The translations under genes were made by a program, and so were the position numbers. A stretch of DNA of 64,000 nt from Pseudoxanthomonas sp. GM95 (GTDB lineage Bacteria; Pseudomonadota; Gammaproteobacteria; Xanthomonadales; Xanthomonadaceae): the NCBI RefSeq assembly GCF_900109775.1, contig NZ_FOAX01000002.1, positions 1,364,001-1,428,000 of the forward strand. Direction: 5' to 3'. Each line of letters opens with the position of its first letter. Positions within the stretch are counted from its first letter, which is position 1. Below the pieces are notes generated by a model that saw only the letters and a program-made list of their open reading frames with translations, was not told the origin of the DNA and did no database searches. This document shows, in pieces, positions 2,423-50,102 of this stretch.

Positions 2423-3451
2423 TCAGGCTTTCGCGGGCGCGGCCGGGGTTTCGCGCGGAACCCCGAAGGTTTCCACCGCGGTCGCGGCCGCGCCGAGCAG
2501 GCCGGGCTGCGCATGCAGGTTGGCCAGCACCGGAATGCCGCCCATGGCCGGCGCAAACCGGCCTTTGTGCTCGAAGCGCTGGCGGAAGCCCGAGCGCTGC
2601 AGCTGCGGCAGCAGGCGCGGCACCAGGCCGCCGCACAGGAACACGCCGTCCCAGGCGCCCAAGGTCAGCACCAGGTCGCCGGCGATCGCCCCGAACACCG
2701 CAAAAAACACATCCAGCGCATGCAGGCACAGGGCATCGCCTTCGGCCGCGCGCTTGGTGACATCGGCCGGCTTGAGCGGACCGGGATCTTCGCCGGCCAT
2801 CTCGCTCAGGGCGCGATGGATGTTGACCAGGCCGGGGCCGCAGATCAGGCGCTCGTTGGAGACGCGTCCGAACTGACGCGACAGGCGCTGCAGGATCTCG
2901 ATTTCTTCCGGGTTGCCCGGCGGGAAGCTCACGTGGCCGCCCTCGGTTTCCAGCGCGATGCGCTTGCTGTCGCGGATCAGCAAGCCGCCAGCGCCCAGGC
3001 CGGTGCCCGGGCCGATCACCGCGTAGGTCTTGTTCTTGGACAACGGCGCTGGCTTCCAGCGCGCCGGGCCGACCTGGGCCACATCGCCCGGGCCCAGCAG
3101 CGACACGGCCATGGCCTGCGCGGCGAAGTCATTGATCAGCTTGACCCCTTCGAACCCCAGCGTGGTGCGCAGGCGCGAGACCTTGATCACCCACGGATGG
3201 TTGGTGACGCGGGCTTCGTCGCCATCGACACGGCCGGCCACGGCGAACACGCCGTTGCGCGCCTTGGACCCGGTTTCATCCAGATAGTGCTTGGCCGCAT
3301 CGGCCAGGGACGGGAACTCGGCGACCACGTATTCCCGGACGCTCTCGGCCAGGAACGGTTGGTCGGCGGAGGTGTCGGCCAGCGCGAAGCGCGCGTTGGT
3401 GCCGCCGATATCGGCCAGCAGGACGCACTGCGCGGGGTCGGGTGAGGTCAT
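2423..3451 (-). CDS. glk: Glucokinase
   Basis: Phosphorylates glucose with ATP to feed the Entner-Doudoroff genes downstream. The 342-residue product has the bacterial glucokinase motifs: phosphate-1 loop DIGGTNARF at residues 14-22, INDFAAQAMA, phosphate-2 loop GPGTGLGAGGL and ETEGGHVSFPP. The frame extends 51 codons further upstream, but the ATG at 3451 places the nucleotide loop at its usual distance from the N-terminus and is preceded by an AGGA site, so I start there. It is divergent from the sugar-type ABC ATPase gene, with a LacI-type operator in the shared intergenic region, which fits carbohydrate-responsive control. Confidence 0.93.
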   Translation of the reverse strand: MTSPDPAQCVLLADIGGTNARFALADTSADQPFLAESVREYVVAEFPSLADAAKHYLDETGSKARNGVFAVAGRVDGDEARVTNHPWVIKVSRLRTTLGFEGVKLINDFAAQAMAVSLLGPGDVAQVGPARWKPAPLSKNKTYAVIGPGTGLGAGGLLIRDSKRIALETEGGHVSFPPGNPEEIEILQRLSRQFGRVSNERLICGPGLVNIHRALSEMAGEDPGPLKPADVTKRAAEGDALCLHALDVFFAVFGAIAGDLVLTLGAWDGVFLCGGLVPRLLPQLQRSGFRQRFEHKGRFAPAMGGIPVLANLHAQPGLLGAAATAVETFGVPRETPAAPAKA

Positions 3452-42737: not shown

Positions 42738-44141
<1,404 letters not shown>

Positions 44142-44271
44142 GCACGAGACGCTTGCGCGGCACTGCCGCGCGTGTCGTGCGAACGCCTCGCGTGCTTCGC
44201 GAGGCCGGCGCGCTGAGTAGATCAGGTGGCGAGGCAACGCGATCACGCTGCCAATCGTCTATCGCTCGCAC

Positions 44272-44301
44272 AAAAAAGCCGACGCATGCGTCGGCTTTTT
44301 T
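44272..44301. terminator. Bidirectional terminator between fumC and the YtrA operon
   Basis: A fully self-complementary element, AAAAAAGCCGACGCA followed directly by its complement ending in TTTTTT, with U-tracts on both strands. It stops fumC rightward and the seven-gene operon leftward (23 bases after its last stop). Confidence 0.9.
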
Positions 44302-44324
44302 CCTTCAGCGCATCAAGCCCAGCG

Positions 44325-44759
44325 TCAGCGGCTTTCCAACCGAATCAGCTCCAAGCTGCCCGCATAAGGCCGCAACTCCGGGAACTCGGCCAGCAGCTCG
44401 GTCTGCAGCTGCTTGATCTGCGCATCCGGCGCGATGCTGACCGGCTTGCCCGGATTGGCCTGCAGCTGGTCGAGCACCTGCTGCCGGCGCATCTGCAGCT
44501 GGCCGAAATAGTTCTGCAGCACCTGCTGCTTTTCCGGCGGCTGGGGCAGGGCGACGTCGTCCAGCTTGAGCGTGCCGTCGGGCCCGATGCTGACCGCCGC
44601 ACCCGGCGGCTGGCGCATGGACACTTCCATGCTGGTGACCGAGGTGGCCGGCTTCATGCGCTCGGCGCGGGCCGAGGCACGCTCACCGTTGTCGCCGCAG
44701 GCGGTCAGTGAGAGGCCCGCCAGCGTGGCGAGCAACAGGGATTTGATCGAAATACGCAT
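44325..44759 (-). CDS. Small lipoprotein, last gene of the YtrA operon
   Basis: A 144-residue predicted lipoprotein: basic start, hydrophobic core and lipobox SLTAC with Cys21. The mature part contains VSIGPDGTLKLDDVALP, then QQVLQNYFGQLQMRRQQVLDQL, the same layout (a short beta hairpin of the type IxPDGxLxxDxxxL followed by a long helix) as the middle of the next lipoprotein upstream, suggesting distant paralogy with the YggN group. Function unknown. 67 bases separate it from that gene. Confidence 0.7.
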   Translation of the reverse strand: MRISIKSLLLATLAGLSLTACGDNGERASARAERMKPATSVTSMEVSMRQPPGAAVSIGPDGTLKLDDVALPQPPEKQQVLQNYFGQLQMRRQQVLDQLQANPGKPVSIAPDAQIKQLQTELLAEFPELRPYAGSLELIRLESR

Positions 44760-44826
44760 GCATCAATTGTAAGCGATCACCCGGCGAGGCCCGAGATGCT
44801 GAGCCTGGCCGGGTGACGTCCGATCG

Positions 44827-45453
44827 TCAGAAATTCCAGTGCCCGTTCTTGTTGCAGTCCTCGACGTCGGACTGGTCCATCTTGGCGTAGGGCTTGAACT
44901 CGGGCTGGGCGGCGGCCCAGGCCTGCTGGGTCTTGAGCAGCTCGGGCAGGCGGGCGCAGAGTTTGTCGACCTGCGGCTTGATGCGCTGCTCGGCCAGGGC
45001 TTCGGCCTGCTTGCTGGCCGCTTCGCCGCCCTGGCCGCTCATCAGGCCTTTCAGCGCCGCCGCGGCGGCATCGATGCCGAGCTTGGCGCCTTCCATGCCG
45101 ATGGCGATGCCATCGCTGGCCACGCCCTGCAGCTGGGTGCGATACGCCTTGCCCAACACGGTCTGCTCGGGCGTCATCGCCACCGGCTTGCCGTCGATCA
45201 GCAGCGCGCCGGACGGGGTGAGTTCGGCCTTGGGCAGGGCGTGGTCGCTGTCGCTGAGTGACATGTTCTCGGTGGCCAGTTTCTCCTGGACCTTGGACAT
45301 TTCCTGCTTGGCGCCTTCCATGCCCTGTGAGGCTTTTTCGAGGCCTTTCTGGGCCTGGTCCATGCCCTGGGCCACCGGGCCACTGCCCGGTTGGCAGGCG
45401 GTCAAGGCCAGCAGGCTCGCGATGGCGGCGGCGTGCATCAGTGAAGTCTTCAT
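44827..45453 (-). CDS. YggN-like (DUF2884-type) lipoprotein
   Basis: A 208-residue lipoprotein with lipobox LTAC (Cys20), then a helical stretch rich in Met, Gln and Lys (GMDQAQKGLEKASQGMEGAK) and the YggN pattern LTPSGALLIDGKPVAMTPEQ leading into a glycine-containing helix (DGIAIGMEGAKLGIDAAAAAL). YggN of E. coli has no clear function. Two cysteines near the C-terminus may form a disulfide. Sits 31 bases after the GSGD-repeat gene in the same operon. Confidence 0.75.
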   Translation of the reverse strand: MKTSLMHAAAIASLLALTACQPGSGPVAQGMDQAQKGLEKASQGMEGAKQEMSKVQEKLATENMSLSDSDHALPKAELTPSGALLIDGKPVAMTPEQTVLGKAYRTQLQGVASDGIAIGMEGAKLGIDAAAAALKGLMSGQGGEAASKQAEALAEQRIKPQVDKLCARLPELLKTQQAWAAAQPEFKPYAKMDQSDVEDCNKNGHWNF

Positions 45454-45484
45454 GGCGTGGTGTTCCGTAAAAAGGGGCGGAAGG

Positions 45485-46339
45485 TCAGTGGTCTTTGGGC
45501 ACGTCGACGGTGCCGGTCACGCCATGCTGGTCGATGTCGCCGCTGCCGCGGCTGCGCACGGTCAGGTTGCCGCGCACGTCGTTGACGTTGAGGTCGCCCG
45601 AACCGATCGAGCCGACCGTCACGTCGCCGCCGACATCGCGCAGCTCCACGTCGCCCGAACCCACCGAGCCGACGCTCACACTGCCCACGCGCTGCAGCTT
45701 GAGATCGCCCGAACCGACGCTGCCGATGTCGGCCTTGCCGGCGACGCGGTTGACTTCGGCATCGCCCGAGCCGATCGAGAGCAGCTTCAACGATGCGGCG
45801 CCGTCGAGCTTGAGATCGCCCGAACCGATCTTGGCCGTAACCGGGCCGGCGATGTCGCGCAGGTCGATATCGCCCGAGCCGACATCGGCGCTGGCGGCCT
45901 TGGCGCCGGTGAGCGAGGCATCGCCCGAGCCCACGTCCAGCTGCACCAGCACGTCGTTGGGCACGGTGCCGTCCAGGTCCATGTACCAGTAGGTGCTGCC
46001 GCTGAAGCTGAAGGTCAGTTTCTTCTCCGGCATCAGGGTGACGACGAGCTTGTCGCCGTCGCGCTGCTGGCTGATCTGCATGTCCTTGAGCAGGTCGGCG
46101 CTGGAAGCACAGGCGCGGCCATTCAATGCACCGGCTGCGCCGTTGCCGGCCTTGAGCCGCAAGTCGCTGGAGCCGACCTTGAACAGCACCGATGTGGCGC
46201 CGGCCAGGTCCAGCTTGAGGCTGCGCGGCTCGGAGAACTTGCAGTGCGCAGGATCGGCGGCCTGGGCCAGCATCGGCAGGGCCAGCAGCACGGCCGCGGC
46301 CAGGGTGGGAAGACGCAGGAAGTGGCGTGACGGATTCAT
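45485..46339 (-). CDS. Periplasmic GSGD-repeat beta-solenoid protein (DUF2807/DUF4097-like)
   Basis: A 284-residue exported protein: signal peptide (PTLAAAVLLALPMLAQA, cleavage after residue ~27), a globular region, then eight copies of the motif [V/I/R]GSGD spaced 16-21 residues apart to the C-terminus (for example DVGSGDIDLRDI, KIGSGDLKLDG, SVGSGDVELRDV). Regular GSGD turns are typical of the right-handed beta-helix of the DUF2807/DUF4097 group of putative head domains. ATG at 46339 follows AGGAG; the frame continues upstream through the permease gene and is not real there. Unknown partner; 23 bases after the ABC permease gene, which suggests a joint function. Confidence 0.82.
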   Translation of the reverse strand: MNPSRHFLRLPTLAAAVLLALPMLAQAADPAHCKFSEPRSLKLDLAGATSVLFKVGSSDLRLKAGNGAAGALNGRACASSADLLKDMQISQQRDGDKLVVTLMPEKKLTFSFSGSTYWYMDLDGTVPNDVLVQLDVGSGDASLTGAKAASADVGSGDIDLRDIAGPVTAKIGSGDLKLDGAASLKLLSIGSGDAEVNRVAGKADIGSVGSGDLKLQRVGSVSVGSVGSGDVELRDVGGDVTVGSIGSGDLNVNDVRGNLTVRSRGSGDIDQHGVTGTVDVPKDH

Positions 46340-46362
46340 CGCAAAGCTCCTTGGAGGAACGA

Positions 46363-47358
46363 TCAGGCGTCGTCGCGGCGGCGACGGACGATGACGGCCA
46401 GGACGATCAGGGCCACGCCCACCGCCGCGCCGATCCACAGATCGGGGTTGGCGTAGATGGACGGGTTGCTGGTGTGGTGCAGGACCATATCCAGCGCCTG
46501 GGCGGGGTTCTGGACCGATTGGGTGGCGCTTTCCACGGTCTCGTGGCGCGCCATTTCTGGCGGGATCCAGGCGCCCGGCAGCACGCTCAGCAGGCCGCGG
46601 TACATCACCAGGTACCAGACATCGCCCAGCGGCAGGTGCAGGCCCGGCATCGCGCCCATGATGCTGATCACCACGCAGAACAGCAGCGGCACCAACACCG
46701 CCCAGAGGAAGGGCACGCGACGCGCCCAGGCCGAGCACAGCATCAGCCAGCCGATCGCCGGCAGCGACCACAGGACGAAGATTGGCAGGGTCGCCAGCAT
46801 CGTGCCGATCACGCGGAACGGATGCGAGGCGGTGAAGATCGCCCCGGCACCTGGTATGCCGGCAAAGGAGGAGGCCAGGGCGATGATCACCCACAGGCCC
46901 AGGCCGATCAGCAGGCCGACCACCAGCGAGATGATCTGGGTCAGCAGCAGCGCCCATGTCAGCTTGGAGGCCACGGTCATCGCGTCGGAGACCGGCAGTG
47001 ACTTCCAGAACAGCACGCTGCGGTCGCTGCGATCGTTGTAAAGGCTGCCCAGGCAGTAGAAAAACACCACGAAAGCCACCACGATCCCGGCGATGCTGAA
47101 GCCGGCCAGCATGGCGACATCGCCGGCAACGCCGTAGCCGGCGGCGATCGCGCCCCAGTCGTCACCAACCGTGTCGCCAGTGCCATGGCTGCGCATCTGG
47201 ATCGCGCCAATCACCGCGCCCAGCAGGGCGAACAGCAGCACGATGCCGGCGGTGATGGCCTGGGCCCAGAGGAAGCCGCCGCGGTGTTCCCAGTATTCGC
47301 GGCGCAGCAGCCAGCCGAATACGCCGGGCTTGGTCAAGGTGCGGGCAGGGGCGTTCAT
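46363..47358 (-). CDS. ABC-2 type transporter permease of the YtrA operon
   Basis: Integral membrane subunit of 331 residues with about six hydrophobic segments (for example ITAGIVLLFALLGAVIGAI and SIAGIVVAFVVFFYCLGSLY), an N-terminal amphipathic stretch LLRREYWEHRGG and a long periplasmic loop before the last helix. The NDRSDRSVLFWKSLPVSD segment is typical of ABC-2 permeases paired with YtrB-like ATPases. Start overlaps the ATPase stop by four bases. Confidence 0.88.
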   Translation of the reverse strand: MNAPARTLTKPGVFGWLLRREYWEHRGGFLWAQAITAGIVLLFALLGAVIGAIQMRSHGTGDTVGDDWGAIAAGYGVAGDVAMLAGFSIAGIVVAFVVFFYCLGSLYNDRSDRSVLFWKSLPVSDAMTVASKLTWALLLTQIISLVVGLLIGLGLWVIIALASSFAGIPGAGAIFTASHPFRVIGTMLATLPIFVLWSLPAIGWLMLCSAWARRVPFLWAVLVPLLFCVVISIMGAMPGLHLPLGDVWYLVMYRGLLSVLPGAWIPPEMARHETVESATQSVQNPAQALDMVLHHTSNPSIYANPDLWIGAAVGVALIVLAVIVRRRRDDA

Positions 47359-48227
47359 GCGTAGGTTCCTTTCATGATGGCCACGAACAGGTCGGCCAGG
47401 CCGGGATTGCGGGTTTCGCCGAGCGCGGCCAGTTGTTCACGCGGCACGCCGTCGAACAGCATCACGGTCTTGCCGAAGGGCAGGGCGCGCTGGTCGATGG
47501 GGCGCAGCGCACGGGCCTGTTCGGCCGTGGCTTCGGAGACCAGCAGTTCGGTGTAGCGGGTGCCGACGTCATCCATGGTCGCGGTCAGCGCGATCTTGCC
47601 GTCGCGGATGAACATCACGTCGGTGAGGATGTGCTCGATCTCCTCCACCTGGTGGGTAGTGACGATGATCGTCTTGTCCTCGTCGAAGTAATCCTCCAGC
47701 AGGCGCTGGTAGAACTGCTTGCGATACAGGATGTCCAGGCCCAGGGTCGGCTCGTCCAGCACCAGCAGCTTGGCGTCGATGGCCATCACCAGCGCCAGGT
47801 GCAGCTGGACGATCATGCCCTTGGACATCTCCCGCACACGCAGGTTGGGCTTGAGCTGGGTGCCTTCGAGGAAGCGCATGCACTTGGCGCGGTCAAACCG
47901 CGGATGCACGCCGCCGACGAAGTCGATCGCCTCGGACACCTTCATCCAGCGCGGCAGCACGGCCACGTCGGCGATGAAGCAGACCTCGCGCATCAGCTCG
48001 TCGCGGCTGTGGCGCGGGTCCATGCCCAGCACTTTCAGTTCGCCCTCGAACGGGGTCAGGCCCAGGATGGCCTTGAGCGCGGTGGTCTTGCCGGCGCCGT
48101 TGGGACCGATCAGGCCGACGATGCGGCCGGCGTCGATCAGGAAGCTGGCGCCGTCCAGCGCGGCCTTGTTGCGATAGGTCTTGCGCAGGTTGTTGGCCTG
48201 CACGACCGGTGCGGTCACGGCGTTCAT
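47355..48227 (-). CDS. ABC transporter ATP-binding protein of the YtrA operon
   Basis: ATPase of 290 residues, partner of the downstream permease. Walker A GPNGAGKTT, Walker B LLVLDEPTLGLD and switch His (TTHQVEE) are intact. The signature is EMSKGM in place of LSGGQ, a known variation in this ATPase group, and lacks the usual following Arg. A C-terminal domain of about 70 residues follows the core. Overlaps the regulator gene by four bases, indicating coupled translation. Confidence 0.9.
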   Translation of the reverse strand: MNAVTAPVVQANNLRKTYRNKAALDGASFLIDAGRIVGLIGPNGAGKTTALKAILGLTPFEGELKVLGMDPRHSRDELMREVCFIADVAVLPRWMKVSEAIDFVGGVHPRFDRAKCMRFLEGTQLKPNLRVREMSKGMIVQLHLALVMAIDAKLLVLDEPTLGLDILYRKQFYQRLLEDYFDEDKTIIVTTHQVEEIEHILTDVMFIRDGKIALTATMDDVGTRYTELLVSEATAEQARALRPIDQRALPFGKTVMLFDGVPREQLAALGETRNPGLADLFVAIMKGTYA

Positions 48228-48583
48228 TCATTGCCTCCCTTGGGCAGGTCGTCGAGCGTCAGTCCCAGGCGCGCGATGCGCGTGGCCACTGCCGGCCATT
48301 CTTCTGTGAGGAATCGTTCGCGCTCGGAGGCCAGCAGCTTCTTGGCAGCCTCCTCGGTCACGAACATGCCCAGGCCGCGGCGTTTCTCGACCAGGGCCTC
48401 GTCGGCCAGCTCCTGGTAGGCGCGCGAAACGGTGATGGGGTTGAGCTGGTAGTCGGCCGCCACCTGGCGGACCGAAGGCAGGGCGTCGCCGGGCTTGAGT
48501 TCGCCGTCGAGCATCATGGCGATGACCTTTTCCTTGAGTTGGCGGTAGATGGGAGCGCCGTCGCTCCACTGGATGGGTGTCAT
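48224..48583 (-). CDS. ytrA: GntR-family regulator, YtrA subfamily
   Basis: Repressor-type regulator of 119 residues: a winged-helix domain (APIYRQLKEKVIAMMLDGELKPGDALPSVR, in parts, with the recognition helix NPITVSRAYQELADEALV) and a short C-terminal helical part, the compact YtrA layout without an effector domain. ATG at 48583 was chosen because MTPIQWSDGAPIYRQ is the family start. A 22-bp palindrome overlapping the operon promoter is its likely operator, so it should repress its own operon. B. subtilis YtrA controls an ABC operon induced by wall-active antibiotics. Confidence 0.9.
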   Translation of the reverse strand: MTPIQWSDGAPIYRQLKEKVIAMMLDGELKPGDALPSVRQVAADYQLNPITVSRAYQELADEALVEKRRGLGMFVTEEAAKKLLASERERFLTEEWPAVATRIARLGLTLDDLPKGGNE

Positions 48584-48587
48584 GGGT

Positions 48588-48863
48588 TCAGCTCCCGGGT
48601 CGCAACAGACGGGCAAAAGAGAAGTAGGGCATCGACAGCGCGCGCCGCCGAGGGTGGATGCCGTCCTGGGCTGGGGAAGGAGTCGGGTCGGTGCTGGTTT
48701 CCAGCACCGGCTTGAGCACCACGTCCGCGGCGGCGGCTTCCATGGCCGCCGGCATCGCCGCGGCCTGCTGGGGATGGAGCTGGGCCATCAGGCCCACCAC
48801 GGCCAGGGCGACCAAGGTCAGCCCGAGCCATGTCGTTCCGGAACTCCTGAGCCTGCTGTCCAT
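48588..48863 (-). CDS. Small single-pass membrane protein, first gene of the YtrA operon
   Basis: A 91-residue protein with one hydrophobic segment near the N-terminus (TWLGLTLVALAVVGLMAQL), an alanine/methionine-rich stretch after it and a basic C-terminus (HPRRRALSM ... RLLRPGS). ATG at 48863 follows GCAGGGGG. It precedes ytrA by four bases and is nearest to the promoter. No family recognised. Confidence 0.6.
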   Translation of the reverse strand: MDSRLRSSGTTWLGLTLVALAVVGLMAQLHPQQAAAMPAAMEAAAADVVLKPVLETSTDPTPSPAQDGIHPRRRALSMPYFSFARLLRPGS

Positions 48864-48888
48864 CGCGTGCCCCCTGCTTTGGGTGAGT

Positions 48889-48912
48889 GGTGTTGTAGTC
48901 AACTATAACACC
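48889..48912. promoter_or_regulatory. Palindromic operator, probable YtrA site
   Basis: GGTG-N16-CACC enclosing a near-perfect 22-bp palindrome with consensus GTGTTRTAGTYRACTAYAACAC. It covers the -10 box of the operon promoter. From memory, a GGTG-N16-CACC motif has been reported for the YtrA-type regulator of Xanthomonas citri. Confidence 0.75.
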
Positions 48913-48929
48913 AAAGAAAGGGGCGTCAA
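48902..48929 (-). promoter_or_regulatory. Promoter of the seven-gene YtrA operon
   Basis: Minus-strand TTGACG (48924-48929), 16-base spacer, TATAGT (48902-48907), close to the sigma-70 consensus. Transcription would start about 30 bases before the first ATG. Confidence 0.75.
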
Positions 48930-49101
48930 TACCGCTGACATCATTCGTTCACCCAACTAAAGACAGGGGTGCCCGGATTGGGCCGAGAGCCGGTTTCGGG
49001 GCGGTCATCGGCTCTGTGACATGCGCGCTGGCCATGCGTGATCAAGTGCCTGCTGAGTGCGTGCCCGGCAGTACATGCGGACAACGCCTGCCTGCTGCGA
49101 G

Positions 49102-49151
49102 CGCACATGCCACAATGTGCGTCTGTCGCGCCGGCTGCACCGGCGCTTTTT
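49102..49151 (+). terminator. Tandem hairpins with intrinsic terminator before the FKBP gene
   Basis: A 7-bp hairpin (CGCACAT / ATGTGCG, 49102-49121) is followed by GCGCCGG-CTGCA-CCGGCGC and TTTTT (49128-49151). The U-tract ends 21 bases before the start codon, so transcripts from upstream would end here unless the hairpin is prevented. Confidence 0.65.
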
Positions 49152-49172
49152 GTCGCATGAGGGATGCACCGG

Positions 49173-50102
49173 ATGAAATCGTTTGGCACTTGGGTGGCGG
49201 GCGTGTGCCTGGCCTCGGCCCTGATCGGAGGAAACGCAGTGGCGCAGGAAAAGAAGACGCTGGACACCCAGCGTGACAAGGTCAGCTATGCCATCGGCAT
49301 GGACATTGGCCGTTCGTTCGTGCCGGTGTCCGATTACATCGATCCGGCCAGCCTGCAGGCCGCCCTGCAGGGCGCCATCAAGGGTGAAAAGCCCACGCTG
49401 AGCGAAACCGACGCCCAGGCCACCGACACCGCGCTGCGCGCCAACCTGGCCGCCAAGTCCGGCCAGACCCCGCCTGGCCAGCCGCCGGGCACCCAGCCGC
49501 CGGCCGTCAACAAGCAGAACGTGGGCACCCTGATCGGTGGCTACATGATCGGCCCCAAGCTGGCCCCGCTGAAGGATGAAGTGGAACTGCCGGTGCTGAT
49601 GCAGGCCGTGCGCGCGGTGTTCGCCAAGCAGCCCACGCTGCTGACCGAGACCGAAGCGCAGCAGGTCGTGCAGAGCTACGCCAGCGAGCGCCAGGCCGGC
49701 CTGGCCCAGCGCAACCGTGACGAAGGCGCGGCCTTCCTGTCCAAGAACAAGGCCGTCAAGGGCGTGGTCACCACCCCGTCGGGCCTGCAGTACATGGTCC
49801 TGCGCCAGGGCAGCGGCGAGCGTCCGACCGCCGCCAGCACCGTGCGTGTGAACTACGAAGGCAAGCTGCTGGACGGCACCAAGTTCGACAGCTCCTACGA
49901 TCGTGGCGAGCCGGCGACCTTCCCGCTGGCCAACGTGGTGCCGGGCTGGACCGAAGGCCTGCAGCTGATGCCGGTGGGCTCCAAGTACCGCTTCTGGGTG
50001 CCGGCCTCGCTGGGTTACGGCGCGCAGGGCACGCAGGGCGGCCCGATCGGCCCGGAAGCCACGCTGACCTTCGACGTTGAACTGATCGGCATCGCCAAGT
50101 AA
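49173..50102 (+). CDS. FKBP-type peptidyl-prolyl isomerase (Mip/FkpA group) with two N-domains
   Basis: Periplasmic proline isomerase of 309 residues. Signal peptide with cleavage near ANAVAQ (about residue 25), then two related helical FKBP_N modules (KVSYAIGMDIGRSF from 36, NVGTLIGGYMIGPKL from 116) joined by a Gly/Pro/Gln-rich linker, and a C-terminal FKBP domain (from about 205: TTPSGLQYMVLRQG, VRVNYEGKLLDGTKFDSSYDRG, VPGWTEGLQLMPVGSKYRFWVP). Mip and FkpA normally have a single dimerising N-module. ATG at 49173 has GAGGG at good distance; an ATG nine bases earlier is possible. Overlaps slyX by one base. Confidence 0.92.
   Translation: MKSFGTWVAGVCLASALIGGNAVAQEKKTLDTQRDKVSYAIGMDIGRSFVPVSDYIDPASLQAALQGAIKGEKPTLSETDAQATDTALRANLAAKSGQTPPGQPPGTQPPAVNKQNVGTLIGGYMIGPKLAPLKDEVELPVLMQAVRAVFAKQPTLLTETEAQQVVQSYASERQAGLAQRNRDEGAAFLSKNKAVKGVVTTPSGLQYMVLRQGSGERPTAASTVRVNYEGKLLDGTKFDSSYDRGEPATFPLANVVPGWTEGLQLMPVGSKYRFWVPASLGYGAQGTQGGPIGPEATLTFDVELIGIAK

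Follow-up and report, generated by a model that had tools for sequence, protein, structure and literature searches.

The window analysed here is a stretch of 64,000 nucleotides (nt) from Pseudoxanthomonas sp. GM95 (contig NZ_FOAX01000002.1, positions 1,364,001 to 1,428,000), and the present study concerns an operon of seven co-directional open reading frames (ORFs) on its minus strand, running from 48863 to 44325. The first ORF (48588-48863) encodes a small protein of 91 amino acids (aa) with a single transmembrane (TM) segment and a C-terminal LSMPYFSFA motif. It is followed by a GntR regulator of the YtrA type (119 aa, 48224-48583; PF00392, 54.4 bits) and the ATPase of an ATP-binding cassette (ABC) transporter (290 aa, 47355-48227; ABC_tran, PF00005, above the gathering score). 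An ABC-2-like permease (331 aa, 46363-47358) is assigned by its position, since its only match in the Pfam scan, ABC2_membrane_5 (PF13346), falls below the cut-off; the small protein likewise gave sub-threshold matches only. The last three genes encode exported proteins: a GSGD-repeat toastrack protein (284 aa, 45485-46339; DUF4097 and DUF2807, PF13349 and PF10988, both above cut-off), a DUF2884 (YggN-like) lipoprotein (208 aa, 44827-45453; PF11101, marginal at 32.4 against a cut-off of 30.6 bits) and a second YggN-like lipoprotein (144 aa, 44325-44759) with no Pfam match.

Spacing, read from the sequence, is tight throughout. Four nt separate the small gene from gntR, gntR and the ATPase gene overlap by 4 nt, as do the ATPase and permease genes, and the remaining gaps are 23 nt (permease to GSGD protein), 31 nt (GSGD protein to first lipoprotein) and 67 nt (between the lipoproteins). 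Upstream lies a sigma-70-type promoter, TTGACG-16-TATAGT (48902-48929, minus strand), with 10 of 12 consensus matches. It is the sole sigma-70 match in 43800-49400, where shuffled sequences would be expected to give 0.4. At the other end, between the operon and fumC, is a bidirectional intrinsic terminator (44272-44301). The consensus scan for terminators had no entry for this hairpin, which was revealed by folding: it forms on both strands (-29.3 kcal/mol, z -2.6, and -20.5 kcal/mol, z -3.1) with T-runs on both, and because of this it probably serves fumC as well. Within 44141-44325, fumC and the operon converge on this one terminator, and many loci of the family likewise have fumC and purB beyond the downstream end of the operon. 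An earlier, sequence-only reading of this DNA had proposed a tight seven-gene operon with one promoter and one terminator; the ORFs, their spacing, the lone sigma-70 match and the two-strand hairpin bear this out, and the operon is both real and widely conserved in the order.

Comparisons were made with 100 further loci. From the family, 53 were fetched of the 113 ATPase orthologue loci in other genomes (one locus for each genus and four from the strain's own), and from the rest of the order 47 of 51, leaving out G123, G133, G162 and G167, which include both f6 genomes. An inverted-repeat search of the window picked out a putative operator, GGTGTTATAGTTGACTACAACACC, a 24-bp palindrome lying over the -10 box (48889-48912, minus strand), for which the repeat finder gave two 12-nt arms, 92% complementary and 2 nt apart. 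The sequence-only reading had passed over this palindrome. A site of the same consensus (at least 14 of 18 arm positions) stands upstream of gntR in 100 of the 101 loci, counting the window. The single miss, L085, lies on a contig that breaks off some 150 nt ahead of gntR; elsewhere in that genome, at G024:C177, a good site is present. The promoter elements TTGAC and TATAGT are strongly kept in the 53 family loci; in the 47 loci outside the family the -35 element is weak, and the operator is kept in both sets.

The palindrome fits the motif GGTG-N16-CACC quoted for X. citri YtrA in PMC6746942. (Statements on published work refer throughout to excerpts of the papers concerned.) A long palindromic operator (about 24 bp) whose GT/AC residues are distant from its centre is a feature of YtrA-type regulators (PMC4494728, PMC6746942), and here a 24-bp site of this build precedes the regulator's own ABC operon. 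The regulator itself combines a GntR winged helix (PF00392, residues 13-75) with a short C-terminus, 119 aa in all, as in the YtrA subfamily, where the C-terminus has about 50 aa, so that the YtrA-type control proposed earlier stands. Its best relative in the PDB by sequence is 3tqn, a GntR protein of 113 residues (116.6 bits), with 6sbs and 2du9 also listed. The closest named regulator, from P. winnipegensis, is 93% identical, and those in Xanthomonas loci are about 85% identical. Genome G017, taken as X. arboricola, holds one close homologue (85%), the next best being 33%. HpaR1 and YtrA are equated in PMC7831014. From the motif fit, this equation and the single close homologue in G017, the regulator is very probably the orthologue of Xanthomonas YtrA/HpaR1. 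The genome also has a second YtrA-like GntR protein (39% identical), adjoining another ABC ATPase, at G000:C6:597568-598667.

A close orthologue of the ATPase was found in 114 of 119 family genomes, four of the five misses being genomes of 89% completeness or less. In the sample from the order, 59 of 61 genomes gave a match at E<=1e-60, covering 11 of the 12 families sampled. GntR, ATPase and permease occur together in all 101 loci, drawn from 10 families, with a permease homologue after the ATPase; these three genes are the invariant core. Gene order otherwise varies among loci, and so does the set of exported genes. Among 54 family loci, window included, a toastrack gene was detected in 29 and a DUF2884-like gene in 44 (one copy in 27, two in 14, three in 3); 50 have at least one of the two types, 23 have both and 4 have neither. 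Outside the family a DUF2884-like gene was found in 3 of 47 loci and a toastrack gene in none. These counts come from profiles seeded with the window proteins, which may miss distant relatives, and a number of the contigs fetched stop shortly past the permease gene (e.g. L124, L139), so that absence of the exported genes is not demonstrated there. The linkage of ABC pair and exported genes that the sequence-only reading depended on thus holds in 50 of 54 family loci, whereas beyond the family it is seen in only 3 of 47, and for this reason the exported genes appear to have been added to an older core in this lineage. Median identities to the window over the 53 family loci were 82.1% for GntR, 78.5% for the ATPase and 77.6% for fumC, compared to 39.5% for the permease, 48.0% for the toastrack protein (28 loci) and 39.3% for the first lipoprotein (42 loci). 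The regulator and ATPase are therefore conserved to the degree of a housekeeping enzyme, while the permease and the exported proteins drift or are replaced.

Two of the exported proteins were modelled with AlphaFold2, using alignments of the window and named-locus proteins. The GSGD protein is predicted to be a beta-helix (predicted local distance difference test score, pLDDT, 90.2), and Foldseek matched it to 4qrk (E 9.7e-8) and also to 4opw, both PDB entries named for Toastrack in PMC11237479. Its N-terminus, read by eye, is Sec-like, with a hydrophobic core followed by AQA, and the protein is for that reason probably periplasmic. It scored 34 of the 285 bits that the LiaG model (NCBIfam NF049997) demands. 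The DUF2884 lipoprotein is modelled as long helices (pLDDT 89.6), for which structure searches returned no confident relative. Profiles built from either lipoprotein converge on the same 69 ORFs, which supports the earlier description of both as YggN-like, the first of them also reaching the DUF2884 cut-off by its narrow margin. A stronger YggN/DUF2884 match (110.2 bits) lies outside the operon at G000:C6:100092-100727, so the copies in the operon look like divergent paralogues. For the ATPase, no relative of solved structure was found at E 1e-30, the only cut-off tried.

An ORF of 67-170 aa with a hydrophobic stretch near its start lies between operator and gntR in 94 of the 100 loci that have the operator (2 of 2000 in shuffles), by criteria fixed after a first look at these ORFs; the six misses are L074, L104, L107, L123, L126 and L148. 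A profile of the family's small proteins matches 47 of the 54 loci within the family and 7 of the 47 beyond it, where the protein is therefore identified more from its position and build than from its sequence. The C-terminus is mostly of MPYFSFA type within the family. The tail is cationic, aromatic and well conserved in Xanthomonas and Pseudoxanthomonas, and the N-terminal stretch is hydrophobic. Pairwise differences at codon positions 1, 2 and 3 were 359, 229 and 584 in Xanthomonas, 182, 113 and 258 in Stenotrophomonas, and 3407, 2848 and 3982 in Pseudoxanthomonas, ie highest at the third position in all three genera. Nonsynonymous codon differences nevertheless exceeded synonymous ones in each (554/516, 264/138 and 4533/1512, respectively); judged from these counts, the small protein is evolving fast and constraint is weak outside its tail. 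The members scanned gave no Pfam or NCBIfam match above cut-off. In the loci of another family, f12 (e.g. L116, L119, L120), the small protein carries repeats of the type V-x-L-x-P-V-x-V-x-P that resemble, by eye and unscored, the XAC0231-like protein described below; the L119 protein gave no match to the XAC0231 model. No description of a small first protein in this order was found in the open-access literature searched, in which one search only, by way of YtrG, was aimed at it.

Further targets of the regulator were sought in the strain's own genome (G000). The bare motif GGTG-N16-CACC was useless here, giving 137 matches per strand where the reversed motif gave 173, but an arm-weighted operator pattern picked out four places, against none for the reversed pattern. 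The seven-gene operon itself is one of the four. One operator-like site lies about 40 nt upstream of the gene for an adaptor of the resistance-nodulation-division (RND) type. Next come a pump gene of this type and a second RND-like gene, of which the fetched stretch covers the start (G000:C8:1465411-1472414; L164, L314). The arrangement brings to mind operons like SmeIJK, with one adaptor and two pumps. Another site precedes a gene for a small exported protein resembling the XAC0231 family, followed by trmL (G000:C6:237883-239038; L163, L315). A weak and poorly palindromic match of the GTGTTCTTGTTGATCAAAACGC type at G000:C8:833717 was not counted as an operator; the conserved 22-mer of this type recurs in several genera (e.g. 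L311) and is possibly coding.

Conservation of the two sites was assessed with mononucleotide shuffles as the control. RND adaptor orthologues occur in 58 of 60 genomes, and among the best 30 of these 58 matches 29 have an operator-like site, with 14 or more of 20 arm positions, within 260 nt upstream (shuffles, 1 of 600), the thirtieth scoring 13. For trmL, 10 of the best 30 of 56 matches have an operator-like site within 900 nt upstream (shuffles, 3 of 600), a count that refers to trmL with or without an XAC0231-like gene between it and the site. RND genes also adjoin 15 of 40 operator-like sites that were hand-picked among the matches listed, several from genomes ranked below the best 30 for the RND adaptor. 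In 10 of 19 loci examined from other genomes of the family, a protein of 60-80 aa with a motif like ERDFGVGYGNSSGYA starts beside an operator-like site (near position 3001 in L276, L278, L281, L282, L287, L289, L293, L296, L297 and L313); the one member scanned had no Pfam or NCBIfam match. For the ERDFGVGYG peptide, seen in other genomes of the family, a search of the strain's own genome gave no clear homologue (best E 0.23). In L283, L288, L299 and L310 the protein that begins near the operator-like site, again near position 3001, is an exported one some 300 aa long, of the DPAxQIxxLxxLFR type. An operator on the RND operon was not found described in the open-access literature searched. XAC0231 and trmL were reportedly identified as targets of X. 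citri YtrA by Zhou et al. in 2017, in a set of three directly regulated operons that may already include the RND one.

Taken with the exported toastrack and lipoproteins and the ABC-2-like permease, the RND pump behind an operator-like site agrees with the envelope theme proposed earlier. The reading that we favour, with moderate confidence, is of an autorepressed ytrA (hpaR1-orthologous) envelope-defence operon and regulon, derepressed by envelope stress, with the transporter and the RND pump as outputs. A dimer of the 119-aa GntR protein would bind the 24-bp palindrome containing the -10 box and silence its own operon, and very probably binds the look-alike operators of the RND adaptor/pump operon and of the XAC0231-like gene with trmL. 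Membrane- or wall-active amphipathic compounds that stress the envelope would lift repression, and the derepressed cell would make the ABC-2-type transporter with its small single-TM partner. In the family, the periplasmic beta-helix protein and the helical lipoproteins may act beside the transporter as scaffold- or chaperone-like accessories, while the RND pump would clear the compounds across the outer membrane. Repression in this strain, the inducer, the substrate and the protein-protein contacts are all features that we infer. The repression logic follows from the placement of the operator together with published work on YtrA and PmtR and the autorepression of HpaR1 (PMC4730234). The stress signal is suggested by analogy with B. 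subtilis ytrGABCDEF, which is induced by lipid II-cycle inhibitors and for which a clear role in resistance is not established (PMC12772383, PMC8060467). A paper on copper stress (PMC10924375) proved to have no bearing on the present operon.

Several points weigh against this reading. The operator count across loci was made without a shuffle control of its own, and the protein encoded ahead of trmL reaches 77.7 bits with the XAC0231 family model, for which the curated cut-off is 140. No exported gene was detected in 4 of the 54 loci of the family, nor in 44 of the 47 beyond it (some on contigs that end early), so the exported genes would be dispensable for the job of the core. HpaR1 is also reported to activate gumB through a differently built site; it is thus not purely a repressor, and the arm-weighted pattern would miss sites of the gumB type.

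How the stress would reach the regulator can be proposed with little confidence, and the proposal is on balance doubtful. YtrA systems would have a sensor or gate that has so far been missing, and the small first protein could fill this place. Its N-terminus would lie in the cytoplasm and its aromatic tail in the periplasm, joined by the one TM helix; the protein would bind the transporter or the inducer, relay envelope damage to the ATPase and so free the GntR repressor. The repeats in the f12 loci would then point to one sensor module duplicated at two YtrA operons, with the RND pump as the common effector. A rather improbable alternative is that the small protein, whole or as a C-terminal fragment released by processing, is both cargo and inducer, the transporter being a peptide exporter like S. 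aureus Pmt. Peptides like those that the Pmt transporter exports displace PmtR, itself of the YtrA type, the hydrophobic N-terminal stretch and cationic, aromatic tail noted above would suit such a peptide, and PmtA is the best NCBIfam model for the ATPase. However, the PmtA (NF047565) and PmtR (NF047563) scores, 122.9 of 350 and 58.2 of 200 bits, are far under their cut-offs, and on these membership of the Pmt family was rejected. The PmtA model also matches in 14 of 14 control genomes, always below the cut-off, and in the strain's own genome a different ATPase reaches a higher score, 139.6 bits, so the match is generic; moreover, in many loci outside the family the tail of the small protein changes to a different type. 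The ATPase at G000:C6:597568-598667 fits the PmtA model better than that of the operon.

Less probable again is that the regulator acts chiefly as a global regulator of virulence and exopolysaccharide, the role known for HpaR1, with the ABC genes incidental. HpaR1 does control hrp, gum and enzyme genes in Xanthomonas, but the operator and the three core genes stay together in the fetched loci of 10 families, far past that genus, and the arm-weighted pattern, though blind to gumB-type sites, yields four places in the genome. That the system is a solute importer, with the DUF2884 lipoprotein as the binding protein feeding the permease, is the least probable alternative: the lipoprotein adjoins the ABC pair and a solute-binding role is proposed for it in PMC11237479, but its helical model gave no confident fold match.

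The envelope-defence operon favoured here is in large part already described. The sequence-only reading knew of no description of the full set, but operons with Toastrack, an ABC ATPase, a permease, a GNTR-HTH regulator and a DUF2884 lipoprotein are reported in PMC11237479, and the regulator is known from publications on Xanthomonas under the names YtrA and HpaR1. All of these component families occur together here in one operon, the permease being counted by position and its sub-threshold PF13346 match. The two accounts differ in that PMC11237479 argues for an intracellular Toastrack, membrane-anchored in the protein of such operons, whereas the N-terminus here is Sec-like, and in that the small first gene, the operator and the RND co-target are absent from its excerpted text on these operons. 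With the X. citri YtrA and X. campestris HpaR1 systems the operon shares a regulator that is about 85% identical in Xanthomonas loci, the GGTG-N16-CACC motif and an operator-like site followed by an XAC0231-like gene and trmL; those systems belong to another host genus. B. subtilis ytrGABCDEF also begins with a small TM protein, followed by YtrA, an ATPase, permease subunits and a lipoprotein, but it has two ATPases, two channel proteins and the extracytoplasmic subunit YtrF, and its excerpted descriptions mention neither toastrack nor DUF2884. YtrG, as described, resembles our small protein in position and TM character. S. aureus pmtR-pmtABCD is similar in its YtrA-type regulator, ABC genes, autorepression and operator at the start site, and differs in its four transporter genes and in the exported accessories, none of which the excerpts mention, while our operon is far below the Pmt cut-offs. 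The additions made here are the order-wide small first protein and the operator-like site before the RND adaptor.

For YtrA-type regulators the nature of the inducer is an open question: their effector domain was considered too small for a ligand pocket, although a counter-observation has also been reported (PMC6746942). The role of the small TM protein YtrG of B. subtilis is likewise given as unknown (PMC12772383, PMC8060467). The small membrane protein that heads this operon across the order is a concrete candidate for the YtrA input, and the RND pump behind the same kind of operator provides a small predicted regulon to measure.

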